A stretch of DNA of 51,759 nucleotides, from NCBI GenBank assembly GCA_012797845.1, contig JAAZOH010000041.1, forward strand, positions 1 through 51,759. The letters are read 5' to 3'. The notes under the pieces were generated by a model. It ran no database searches. It was not told the origin of the DNA and was given only the letters and a program-made list of their open reading frames with translations. The DNA comes from Candidatus Beckwithbacteria bacterium. Its GTDB lineage: Bacteria > Patescibacteriota > Microgenomatia > UBA1400 > UBA1449. Within the stretch, counting starts at the first letter, position 1, and every line of letters begins with the position of its first letter. This document shows positions 17,449-50,360 of this stretch, piece after piece. A program made the position numbers and the translations under genes.

Positions 17449-18438
17449 CTATACTAACCCCATTTTTGCTTTAGTTTCGTCTAGGGTTTGACTGGCAATA
17501 GCTCGAGCTTTTTGGGTCCCTTCAGCAATTACCCGATCCACGTAGTCCGGATTTTGTTCCAGCTCTCGGCGTTTAGCTTGGATGGATTGAAGCTCATTGT
17601 AAATAGCTTGAGCTAGTTCTTTTTTCAAATCACCATAACGGATCCCTTCATTTCTATATTGTTGTTCATATTGCTCACGTTTTGATTTACCTTGGAATAG
17701 TTCCACAAAGGTTAATAAATTAGCTACACCACCAACTCGGGGAACTTGATTACCTTTACCACTATCGGTTGGAGCAGCTGCCAGTTTTTTACTAATTTCT
17801 TCTAGGCTATCTGTTAAATTGATGTAGCTACCCTCAACTGACTTACTCATTTTTCCCTCTCCAGTTAAACTCGGTACATAACCAGTTTTAGTCGCAAACC
17901 GGATTGGTTCAGGAAAGTCAGTTCCATACATATCGTTCATTTTCCGGGCAATTTCCCGAGTTACTTCTAAATGAGGTTCTTGATCAACTCCTACTGGAAC
18001 CAAACCAGCTTTATAGGTCAAAATGTCAGCTGCCATTAAAATTGGATAGTTTAGCAAAGCCATAGTGACTGCATCTGGGTGCTGTTTAACTTTTTCTTTA
18101 AAGGTCGGCAAGTGTTGCATTCGAGCAATAGTTACTACTGAAGAAAATAGGTTAGTTAAATAAGTGTGTTCAGGCACTAGTGATTGCTTGGTAATAATAG
18201 CTTTAGCCGGATCCAAACCGGCTGCTAAATAATCGACAACAACTTCTCTAGCAGTTTGAACTAGATTTGTATGATTATATGGAGTGGTAATAGCATGCAA
18301 ATCCATCACCATATAGAGACATTCATAATCTGGATTTTCTGAAAGTTCTATATAACCCTTAACTGCTCCTAAGTAATTACCTAAGTGCAATCGGCCAGTA
18401 GCCCTGGTTCCAGAAAAAACACGTTGTTTATTGCTCAT
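17449..18438 (-). CDS. trpS: Tryptophanyl-tRNA synthetase
   Basis: The 329-residue class I synthetase charges tRNA-Trp. It begins SGTRATGRLHLGNYLGA, with the HIGH-type motif HLGN, and has the KMSKS loop as GEGKMSKSVEG. The Trp-pocket helix around LLNYPILMAADILTYK and DQEPHLEVTREIARK are conserved, and the length is normal. AAGGAG lies 6-8 bases before the ATG, so translation uses a canonical ribosome-binding site. It starts 9 bases after the frameshifted racemase, so it should be co-transcribed with it and with the attenuator-like leader. Confidence 0.96.
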   Translation of the reverse strand: MSNKQRVFSGTRATGRLHLGNYLGAVKGYIELSENPDYECLYMVMDLHAITTPYNHTNLVQTAREVVVDYLAAGLDPAKAIITKQSLVPEHTYLTNLFSSVVTIARMQHLPTFKEKVKQHPDAVTMALLNYPILMAADILTYKAGLVPVGVDQEPHLEVTREIARKMNDMYGTDFPEPIRFATKTGYVPSLTGEGKMSKSVEGSYINLTDSLEEISKKLAAAPTDSGKGNQVPRVGGVANLLTFVELFQGKSKREQYEQQYRNEGIRYGDLKKELAQAIYNELQSIQAKRRELEQNPDYVDRVIAEGTQKARAIASQTLDETKAKMGLV

Positions 18439-18447
18439 ATATACTCC

Positions 18448-19150
18448 TTATTCAAAATAATATTTAACAATTAATGCTCTAGCTAATACATCTAAAGAGT
18501 TTATTGATGGTATTACATATTTCTTTGGAAATACTAAGGGTAATTCAGTACACCCTAAAATAATTGCATCAACTTTTCGTTTAGTTAATTCATTGGCAAT
18601 TGCCACTAACTCTCTTTTAGATTCTTTTACTTCCCCATTAATAATCCTTTTAATAATTTTACCAAGTTTTTTAATTGATGTTTGGGAGGGTAAAACTACT
18701 TTAACTTGGTTTTGATTCATTTTATCTTGATACAACTTTGTTTGAATTGTTGTTGGTGATGCCAGTAAACCTATTCTTTTATAAGCACGAAGCTTAATTT
18801 CATTAACTACAGCATCAATCATGGAAACAAAAGGTTTGTTTGTTTCATTTTGTAAATCCGACAATAGCAAATGCGCGGTATTGCAAGCAACAGCTAAATA
18901 TGAAACGGGTATTTGAGATAATCTTAGTACTCGATCTTGCAAAATATGTAAGGCTTTTTTTTCATTTCTTTTATTGGAAATAAAATCTGGAACAGGAATT
19001 GAGTCGATAATTATTTCTGGATAGTCATTGTTATTGGCTACGCCAAAGATACTCCCGACTTGCCTCAATCATCAATTGATAAAGTTGAGCTGAAGCATCG
19101 GGCCCCATACCACCCAATATGCCAATAATTTTATTGTTTGTTTTTTTCAT
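18448..19150 (-). CDS. Aspartate/glutamate racemase family protein requiring a +1 frameshift
   Basis: Two frames encode one protein. Frame 1 (19150-19031) gives the N-terminus IIGILGGMGPDASAQLYQ and stops after 39 codons. Frame 2 (from about 19046 to 18448) continues with GVANNNDYPEI, IPVPDFISNKR, the first catalytic Cys in AVACNTAH and the second in ILGCTELPLVF. Joined at CTT-TGG they give about 233 residues, the usual length for Asp/Glu racemases, with nothing missing. The enzyme would make D-Asp or D-Glu for peptidoglycan. The join lies at a prfB-like recoding site, so programmed frameshifting is proposed; a fresh mutation or sequencing error is the alternative. It lies between an attenuator-like leader and trpS. 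Confidence 0.75.
19042..19056 (-). promoter_or_regulatory. Candidate programmed +1 frameshift site (prfB-like, with UGG in place of UGA)
   Basis: Minus-strand sequence GGGAG-TAT-CTT-TGG-C. A Shine-Dalgarno-like GGGAG lies three bases before the slippery CTT. In prfB of Escherichia coli the site is AGGGGG-TAT-CTT-TGA-C. Slippage of the Leu tRNA from CUU to UUU joins the two racemase frames exactly. Confidence 0.6.
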
Positions 19151-19196
19151 ATATCCTTTCATAAAATTTAATAAATAGCTAAACAAGTCATAAAAA

Positions 19197-19268
19197 AACC
19201 TCCTTAAAGGAGGTTGTAGTTTTTTTGTATATTATTTGTTTTTTAGACCATGAAAAACTCAACCTCCT
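19197..19268 (-). terminator. Attenuator-like terminator/antiterminator pair
   Basis: The terminator on the minus strand is AACCTCC-TTTAA-GGAGGTT followed by seven T (19197-19215). Its 5' arm CAACCTCCT (19208-19216) is also perfectly complementary over 9 bases to AGGAGGTTG at 19260-19268, so the two structures exclude each other. A third segment, AACCTC at 19301-19306, can pair six bases with that antiterminator arm. The result is a 1:2, 2:3, 3:4 pairing series like that of amino-acid operon attenuators, placed before the racemase and trpS. Confidence 0.65.
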
Positions 19269-19320
19269 GTAAACAGTGGTTGACATACCAAGAGCTAGAT
19301 GAGGTTTGGTATTTATTCAT
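19243..19320 (-). CDS. Candidate leader peptide, 25 codons
   Basis: A short ORF begins 9 bases after an extended -10 promoter, so it would be translated almost leaderless. Codons 7-10 are four consecutive Ser codons (TCA TCT AGC TCT) and codon 11 is the only Trp codon (TGG), followed by Tyr. Segment 1 of the attenuator (AACCTC) lies in codons 5-7, and the antiterminator arm lies in codons 18-20. A ribosome stalled at the Ser/Trp codons would cover segment 1 and free the antiterminator. Coding status rests on position and codon content only. Confidence 0.5.
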   Translation of the reverse strand: MNKYQTSSSSWYVNHCLQEVEFFMV

Positions 19321-19329
19321 AAGAGTTAT

Positions 19330-19338
19330 ATTATATCA
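19330..19338 (-). promoter_or_regulatory. Extended -10 promoter of the leader-racemase-trpS transcript
   Basis: Minus-strand TGA-TATAAT is a consensus extended -10 element with a weak A-rich -35 region. It lies just beyond the 3' end of the interrupted tRNA (19363) and 9 bases before the leader ATG. Confidence 0.65.
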
Positions 19339-19380
19339 AATTTTTACTTATTAGTTTTTTTGTACCAGCGGGTGGGTTCG

Positions 19381-19410
19381 CCACTCAAAGAGCGGTCACT
19401 CTTGGAGTGA
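19381..19410 (-). other. 30-base hairpin inserted in the T-loop of the interrupted tRNA
   Basis: The insert separates T55 from C56 of an otherwise perfect TTCGAAC T-loop. It folds end to end into a 12-pair stem (one T-G pair at the base, one C-T mismatch) closed by the six-base loop TGACCG. The terminal bases pair with each other, so the T-arm could be extended without disturbing the rest of the tRNA. Confidence 0.7.
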
Positions 19411-19430
19411 AACCACCAACCTTAGCCTTA

Positions 19431-19580
19431 CCTGCCCGCAATGCTAAAGCGCCGTTTTGAAAAACAAACTTAATTACAAATAAATTTTGTACCAGGGGTG
19501 GGATTCGAACCCACAACCTTAGCCTTATGAAGACTCTGCTCAGACCATTGAGCTACCCTGGCATAGCTTTTGCAGGCGGG
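19431..19580 (-). other. 150-base structured insert in the anticodon loop, carrying a second tRNA
   Basis: The insert begins CCCGCCTGC and ends GCGGGCAGG on the minus strand. These ends pair over nine positions (seven Watson-Crick, one T-G, one C-A mismatch), an imperfect terminal inverted repeat. A further complementary pair inside, GCAAAAGC with GCTTTAGC, provides an alternative or extended stem. The complete tRNA at 19490-19562 lies between these arms. Without that tRNA only 77 bases remain, too short for a group I intron. Confidence 0.7.
19490..19562 (-). tRNA. tRNA with CAT anticodon (Met or Ile2), complete, nested in the interrupted tRNA
   Basis: A 73-base canonical tRNA without encoded CCA. 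Acceptor GCCAGGG / CCCTGGT (G1-U72 wobble), TA at 8-9, D-arm GCTC-AATGGTCT-GAGC with GG in the loop, anticodon stem GAGTC / GGCTA (27-43 is a G-A mismatch) with loop TTCATAA, variable AGGTT, T-arm GTGGG-TTCGAAT-CCCAC, discriminator A. It lacks the three G-C pairs of initiator tRNA, so it is an elongator Met or a lysidine-type Ile2 tRNA. Its anticodon arm is identical to that of the surrounding interrupted tRNA, which indicates duplication. Confidence 0.88.
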
Positions 19581-19620
19581 TGAAGACTCTGCTCTACCAC
19601 TGAGCTACGCTGGCAAAAAA

Positions 19621-19695
19621 TGAAGCATGAATCAAGAATCATGAATTAAAAACTGTTAATCTAGCCATTATTCATCATTCACAATCCATGCTTCA
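19621..19695. repeat. Palindromic intergenic element next to tRNA genes (copy A)
   Basis: Perfect 9-base terminal inverted repeats TGAAGCATG / CATGCTTCA (19621-19629 and 19687-19695) flank an imperfectly palindromic interior. The segment TGAATCAAGAATCATGAA at 19628-19645 recurs with one change, inverted, at 51131-51148 beside tRNA-Ser. It encodes nothing visible. Confidence 0.7.
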
Positions 19696-19702
19696 TCTTG
19701 TG

Positions 19703-19776
19703 TAGCGGGTCCCCGGTAACGCTCCAGAGGTTAGGTGAGGTTATGAGCCTCACGGGATACTTACCCCCCACCCGCT
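19703..19776 (-). ncRNA. tRNA-like cloverleaf with CAT in an initiator-type anticodon loop
   Basis: Seventy-four bases can form four stems. The acceptor is AGCGGGT / ACCCGCT, the D-like arm GGG-TAAGTAT-CCC, and the anticodon arm GTGAGG-CTCATAA-CCTCAC. The T-like arm is CTCTGG-AGCGTTA-CCGGGG. The anticodon loop CTCATAA and GCGGG acceptor core recall initiator tRNA-fMet. However, T8, the D-loop GG and the TTC of the T-loop are missing. It is therefore a degenerate or specialised tRNA-like RNA rather than a normal tRNA. It lies between ftsB and the palindromic element, on the same strand as the other CAT tRNAs. Confidence 0.45.
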
Positions 19777-19890
19777 ATAACAGGCTATATCTTATCAAAA
19801 TTTACTTCAAATGGCAATGAAATCTGAGATTAATTTTTTAAATCCTATAAGTTAAAGCTTAAAATAAGAGCTTAACGAATTATTTTAAAC

Positions 19891-49907: not shown

Positions 49908-50335
49908 GGGGATGTTTAGAATCGATGGTTTTGCTCATTAAAAACTGGCACGCCGACATTAAATAGTTGTCGTTAAACAGATTTAAAAAAATAAGTGCTG
50001 ATAAACAAGTCAACACAAATCGAGGTCGAACTTTAGCTGATAAGGCTAAAGATGCTGTTAATTCAGCTTTTGACTTTGGTTTCCGAACACCAGCTTTTGC
50101 TCTAGCAGCTTAATTTGGTTTAGGACATCTTAGCTCACTTTTCCTGAGGGAGTCGAGCTAGGGTGAAAACAAACTTCAGGTGTAAGACTAGTCTGGTCAG
50201 CTAGCCCGAAACTTTTGACCAAACTAGCAAGCTATGAATTGCTTGTTATTCACCTTGCTAGTATCTTAACAAGCTATGCGTGTAGAAAGTTTTTAGTAAC
50301 ACAATCAGACGAGGGTGCAATTCCCTCCATCTCCA
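49908..50335 (+). ncRNA. ssrA: tmRNA (SsrA)
   Basis: The tRNA-like ends pair as GGGGATG / CATCTCC, including the G3-U70 wobble that makes alanyl-tRNA synthetase recognise tmRNA, with discriminator A50335 and no encoded CCA. The T-arm is GAGGG-TGCAATT-CCCTC; the loop has TGC where TTC is usual. The tag reading frame (50036-50113) ends ALAA-stop. At 428 bases it is longer than the usual 350-400. Pseudoknot-forming G/C-rich segments lie between the tag and the 3' end (50130-50280). It rescues ribosomes stalled on broken mRNAs together with SmpB. Confidence 0.93.
50036..50113 (+). CDS. tmRNA-encoded proteolysis tag (25 residues)
   Basis: The resume codon is most likely GCT at 50036, giving a peptide that starts ADKAKDAVNSAF and ends TPAFALAA before TAA. 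A resume codon at the in-frame GCT three codons later would shorten the tag to 22. The ALAA terminus is the signal read by ClpXP and similar proteases. It is much longer than the 10-11-residue tag of Escherichia coli. Confidence 0.8.
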   Translation, partial: ADKAKDAVNSAFDFGFRTPAFALAA

Positions 50336-50360
50336 CAAAATTGCTACACTGGATAATACT

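Follow-up and report, generated by a model that had tools for sequence, protein, structure and literature searches.

The stretch of DNA analysed here (hereafter the window) is the 51,759-nucleotide contig JAAZOH010000041.1 of a Candidatus Beckwithbacteria bacterium (assembly GCA_012797845.1), and it carries on its minus strand a gene for an amino-acid racemase that is split over two reading frames, with the junction at GGGAG-TAT-CTT-TGG-C (positions 19056-19042). The first open reading frame (ORF; 19031..19150, minus strand), here called the 0-frame piece, begins with an ATG at 19150 and is 39 codons long; it reads MKKTNNKIIGILGGMGPDASAQLYQLMIEASREYL-WRSQ-stop, that is, the N-terminal 35 residues of the racemase followed by W-R-S-Q and a TAA at 19033-19031. 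When one base is dropped after CTT, the next codon becomes GGC and the frame is open as far as 18448, giving a joined product of 233 aa; the corresponding +1-frame ORF (18448..19044, minus strand) consists of 198 codons and a stop. Nine bases past the racemase stop starts trpS, coding for tryptophan--tRNA ligase (17449..18438, minus strand; TIGR00233, 290 bits), which possesses a strong Shine-Dalgarno (SD) sequence, AAGGAG. An earlier reading of the same DNA, made from the letters alone (the sequence-only reading), had described a racemase joined from two frames at this site, a product of normal length with both catalytic cysteines and trpS as the next gene; all of these observations are confirmed.

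The joined protein matches the amino acid racemase model TIGR00035 with 143.7 bits (cut-off 93.1), shows no gap at the junction when aligned with 10 intact homologues, and has 2zsk and 1jfl as its relatives in the PDB. Both cysteine motifs, ACNTAH and LGCTE, are located in the +1 piece, and the cysteines themselves (C89 and C200) are invariant in 11 racemase sequences. The 0-frame piece contributes nine further residues that are invariant across the 11 homologues, GGMGP among them, and in an AlphaFold model of the joined racemase (mean predicted local distance difference test, pLDDT, of 88.7) it supplies strand 1 and helix 1, with the junction falling at the end of helix 1. Neither piece alone is the whole enzyme. 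Judging by the TIGR00035 score and the two catalytic cysteines, the racemase is of the aspartate/glutamate type, its substrate being a prediction.

The junction is laid out as follows, all on the minus strand. An SD-like element, GGGAG (19052..19056), is calculated to pair with the canonical anti-SD sequence at -6.2 kcal/mol; between it and the slip codon downstream lie three bases, the codon TAT (19049-19051). The slip codon is CTT (19046..19048), on which slippage would be from CUU to UUU, and it is followed by the A-site codon TGG (Trp; 19043..19045) and by a C at 19042, TAT CTT TGG being codons 34-36 of the 0-frame ORF. The slip codon of prfB with UGG in the A site had been proposed by the sequence-only reading and is indeed present; the likeness to prfB that it had claimed for the SD-like element and its spacing holds in part, as the purine run ends at the prfB position, while GGAG pairs in a register one base nearer the slip codon. 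Both tRNAs concerned, tRNA-Leu(GAG), which should read CUU, and a single tRNA-Trp(CCA), have ordinary loops (38 distinct tRNAs were read; several expected ones are missing from the assembly). A slip-prone CTT in the P site thus stands beside a sense TGG whose tRNA can become scarce, which is the arrangement of a hungry-codon site. The pattern GGGAGNNNCTTTGGC occurs once in the window, against 0.02 occurrences expected; CTT TGG is rare only when a purine block precedes it at a distance of three bases.

The closest racemase-bearing relative, Ca. Beckwithbacteria AS27yjCOA_127 (G001, locus L006), belongs to the same family as the window genome and to another genus. An uninterrupted frame in close relatives, with no conservation of the site, had been named beforehand as a result that would overturn the reading; instead, the relative keeps the same +1 break in the same sequence, with 23 identical bases at the site, the longest identical run in the stretch compared between the two. 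The ratio of nonsynonymous to synonymous substitution rates (omega) between window and relative is 0.11 before the site (35 codons), and 0.22 (120 codons) and 0.31 (76 codons) in two parts after it, at an overall synonymous divergence (dS) of ~0.77. Read in their respective frames, third positions account for 10/14 of the differences before the site and 42/80 after it. A neutral simulation led to an expectation of 8.3 stops per lineage, whereas none is observed, and 0/2000 runs were stop-free. Purifying selection on both pieces together with the lack of stops indicates that the gene is no pseudogene, and since coding selection acts on either side of a one-base break, the two frames must be joined.

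The operon also bears the marks of control by tryptophan (Trp). Upstream of the racemase, on the same strand, is a leader peptide ORF, MNKYQTSSSSWYVNHCLQEVEFFMV (19243..19320), of 25 aa with one Trp codon at 19290-19288; just upstream of it a TATAAT-like -10 hexamer (19330..19335) was recognised by eye, with no scored -35 on the strand and no counterpart in the promoter-scan output. The 5' strand of a putative antiterminator, AGGAGGTTGAG (19258..19268), pairs with 19217-19207 at -15.5 kcal/mol, and a terminator, AACCTCC-TTTAA-GGAGGTT plus a T run (19192..19217), forms a hairpin of -10.5 kcal/mol. In folding calculations a ribosome waiting at the leader Trp codon leaves the antiterminator to form, and one at the leader stop leaves the terminator. 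The window therefore holds what defines an attenuator, a Trp-codon leader ORF before mutually exclusive antiterminator and terminator. Tandem Trp codons are not present: the window leader and nearly all related leaders have one Trp, and that of G632 has two.

Leaders of two kinds precede the racemase in related genomes. Short leader ORFs with a W[YH] motif were found at 12 of the 39 loci scored, window included (2 of 41 were dropped because their start was not found), against 0.67 expected from shuffles, a count that is partly post hoc since the motif was picked after several leaders had been seen. They lie at L030, L031, L032, L037, L038, L040, L041, L056, L057, L011 and L055 and at 19243-19320 of the window; several end in N-stop with a terminator following, and appear to form an undescribed family of Trp attenuators. 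Seven loci (L006 of G001, L009, L007, L039, L043, L045 and L069) have instead, before racemase and trpS, a T-box leader with UGG in the apical loop of a short Stem I. The core and the short Stem I with its UGG loop were recognised by eye at all seven, and the scores are below the Rfam gathering threshold of 93 where computed (51.4 bits in G001, 31.2 in G003). A GGTGGNAC match at G632 was rejected as a T-box, inspection showing it to be the leader with two Trp codons. Excerpts of a review describe short Stem I T-boxes as holding the specifier in the apical loop (PMC7583486), and the window genome itself has leaders of this type at glyS and thrS (gene names assigned by eye). The link to Trp, which the sequence-only reading had drawn from trpS alone, thus gains backing from the leader peptide of the window with its Trp codon and, in relatives, from Trp leaders or UGG T-boxes ahead of the racemase.

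The composition of the proteins points the same way. Trp is absent from the racemase in 20 of 22 intact homologues (one per genome), the exceptions being G032 with two and G416 with one, and from trpS in all three counted. As the racemase is otherwise Trp-free, the gene has no Trp codon besides that at the slip site. Five of the 38 window ORFs of at least 200 aa are Trp-less, so lack of Trp in one protein is mildly unusual, and the weight lies in its persistence across the racemase family. Furthermore, trpA is missing in 7/7 genomes (controls 14/14).

What can be read directly from the DNA is a two-frame gene whose pieces are both under coding selection, a conserved site and an operon context that appears Trp-regulated; from these we infer the slipping itself, a rate that would follow the charging of Trp-tRNA, and any effect on trpS. 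The explanation we favour, and consider probable though well short of settled, is that the racemase is expressed by a prfB-type programmed +1 frameshift in which a sense UGG serves as the slow, Trp-tRNA-sensing A-site codon. The ribosome would pair with GGGAG while keeping tRNA-Leu on CUU. With Trp-tRNA ample, most ribosomes would decode UGG and terminate four codons on at UAA, and transcription would in any case mostly end in the leader. When Trp runs short, the leader ribosome would stall and the operon be transcribed; scarce Trp-tRNA would leave the A site empty, tRNA-Leu would move from CUU to UUU, GGC would be the next codon, and the complete enzyme of 233 aa would be made without consuming Trp, uninterrupted translation running on to trpS. 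The racemase-trpS operon would then have two Trp sensors, a transcriptional attenuator and, below it, the translational shift site. As for what the racemase might do for Trp supply, salvage of D-amino acids is our guess.

Several observations weigh against this explanation. In-frame CTT TGG is common and not avoided elsewhere (13 cases in 48 window ORFs). The SD pairing is moderate, -6.2 versus -8.7 kcal/mol for prfB under an assumed canonical anti-SD, and 2.8% of in-frame positions pair with the anti-SD equally well; the 16S gene of the genome is cut at a contig end, short of its 3' tail. Many window start codons lack an SD, although the strong one of trpS suggests that SD pairing is used in this lineage. 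Codon conservation at the site is by itself weak (P about 0.11), and the site is known from two genomes only. Finally, an IS30-type insertion interrupts the racemase of G001 further on, which would mean that the enzyme is dispensable there or that the gene is being lost. The end of that racemase and the trpS downstream of it, which is of another lineage, sit on a different contig. The two family members differ clearly in the lineage of the trpS that follows the shifted racemase (17449-18438 in the window, L061 in the other), as if the gene had been replaced.

The most serious competitor, which we nonetheless regard as unlikely, is a constitutive programmed +1 shift, in which the SD-like element and CTT deliver a fixed fraction of full-length enzyme and UGG is slow without being regulatory. 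The evidence for the break and for selection fits it equally well, and UGG before C is also demanded by GGC (Gly) in the +1 frame, so that the Trp codon may be a by-product of that glycine. Against it, the operon is controlled by Trp through two other means in relatives and through the leader in the window, and the gene is Trp-free apart from the site. Less plausible still is a tolerated indel, an old one-base change kept because its slippery context lets enough ribosomes pass and little racemase suffices, with no regulation involved. The insertion element in G001 and the lack of a match in another genome of the family (G002) suggest a weakly needed enzyme, and codon conservation at the site is modest; yet the break has persisted over dS ~0.77 with omega near 0.24 and without reversion, and chance would rarely place an indel on a prfB-like element, of which 0.02 are expected per window.

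The two remaining possibilities fare considerably worse. Were the short ORF to end at its UAA and ribosomes to reinitiate in the +1 frame, a separate C-terminal protein would result, and a TTG at 19068 in the window could start it. In G001, however, the +1 frame is devoid of ATG, GTG and TTG from its last stop up to the site, so the whole protein cannot arise there by reinitiation, and the N-terminal piece is under strong selection, with its nine invariant residues, strand 1 and helix 1; two cistrons are accordingly very improbable. That the gene is a pseudogene, or the break an artefact of sequencing or assembly, is the least credible of all: both genomes are fragmented assemblies, but an identical break in two genomes differing at about half of their synonymous sites, the lack of a long homopolymer at the site, the lack of stops and omega values of 0.11-0.31 all speak against it. 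Three further ideas were set aside: transcriptional slippage, since the site has no run longer than TTT; a frameshift-suppressor tRNA, all tRNAs of the incomplete set having 7-base anticodon loops; and a site borrowed from prfB, as the prfB of this genome has no shift site.

A survey of other genomes puts the break in perspective. A scan of genome contigs found two loci, with the site at one of them. In an order sample of 88 genomes, 20 of which have a racemase match, the break occurs only in G000 and G001; no further break of this type was found in a class draw of 373 genomes or in a phylum draw of 379. The third genome of the family, G002, gave no racemase match, and more distant homologues are unbroken, for example that of G003 (48% identical). 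One genome, G122, has a second racemase copy with three in-frame stops (C7:32567-33252), apparently decayed, beside an intact one.

A second frame break was encountered elsewhere in the racemase. In three genomes of three genera (family f17: L058 of G113, L057 of G272 and L056 of G314) the gene is broken at one shared loop after SGLFQ, about residues 140-150 of the query, with omega of 0.07-0.25 on both sides where computable. G272 and G113 have GGAAAGG-TYA-GTT-TGG-C and need a +1 shift; G314 needs a -1 shift and has TGG nearby, so that a 0-frame TGG lies near each of the three breaks. The racemase of a relative, G383, is unbroken, and a search of the order around G272 added nothing to the family search. 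As a second hungry-codon case this break is suggestive only, because the sequence leaves some freedom in the exact shift point and because, according to excerpts of a recoding review (PMC5009743), CUU slips far more efficiently than any other codon. Downstream of the racemase of G314 lies a tRNA with anticodon CCA (Trp; L056, 2123-2193), and no trpS was found in the stretch examined. Elsewhere in the window, tRNA-like fragments not called as genes by ARAGORN or Rfam surround a tRNA-Met (19489-19562) at 19340-19480 and 19560-19790, and a transfer-messenger RNA (tmRNA) gene is found at 49908-50338 (RF00023, 114 bits).

Each component of the proposed switch has a known counterpart. With prfB, as far as the excerpted sources describe it (PMC12421855, PMC5009743), the site shares a purine-rich SD-like block, a three-base spacer, CTTT, a C after the A-site codon, a location early in the gene and a 0-frame product that is useless alone. 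It differs in that the A-site codon is a sense TGG and not an in-frame stop, the 0-frame TAA coming four codons later, and in that the gene codes for a racemase and not for release factor 2 (RF2), so that the signal would be Trp-tRNA instead of RF2; prfB itself is encoded elsewhere in this genome, by an unbroken ORF. The CUU-AGG-C site of yeast Ty1 and ABP140, in the excerpted review (PMC5009743), likewise combines slippage on CUU, a sense A-site codon that is slow because its tRNA is scarce, and GGC in the +1 frame. Those genes, however, are eukaryotic, have no SD element and depend on a tRNA that is permanently scarce rather than on a varying supply of amino acid. In the hungry-codon frameshifting of starved Escherichia coli, as proposed here, an unfilled A site provokes the slip; Gallant and others reportedly saw it as an error in laboratory constructs. 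The excerpted 2016 recoding review holds that starvation frameshifting could yield special products, but knows of no example (PMC5009743). Trp attenuators and T-boxes, like the leaders of the window and its relatives, sense Trp-tRNA upstream of the racemase-trpS operon; they act on leader RNA, whereas the shift site would act on translation within an enzyme gene. A literature search conducted mostly at the level of search results returned no report of a programmed frameshift at a bacterial Trp codon, nor of a T-box or other leader before trpS and racemase. Within that search, the prfB layout, hungry codons, attenuators and T-boxes are all known, and their combination as a sense-codon, amino-acid-sensing frameshift did not appear. 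We give an even chance to the broader proposition that this is the first natural bacterial gene to obtain its full-length product from hungry-codon frameshifting, through a UGG relative of the prfB switch stacked under an attenuator or T-box, and that such a switch may have arisen repeatedly in this gene (f17). The locus is in any case a concrete candidate for starvation-specific recoding that is cheap to test. If the reading is true, reduced Patescibacteria without trpA place transcriptional and translational Trp sensors in one operon, and a change of the A-site codon can make the prfB switch respond to an amino acid instead of a release factor.
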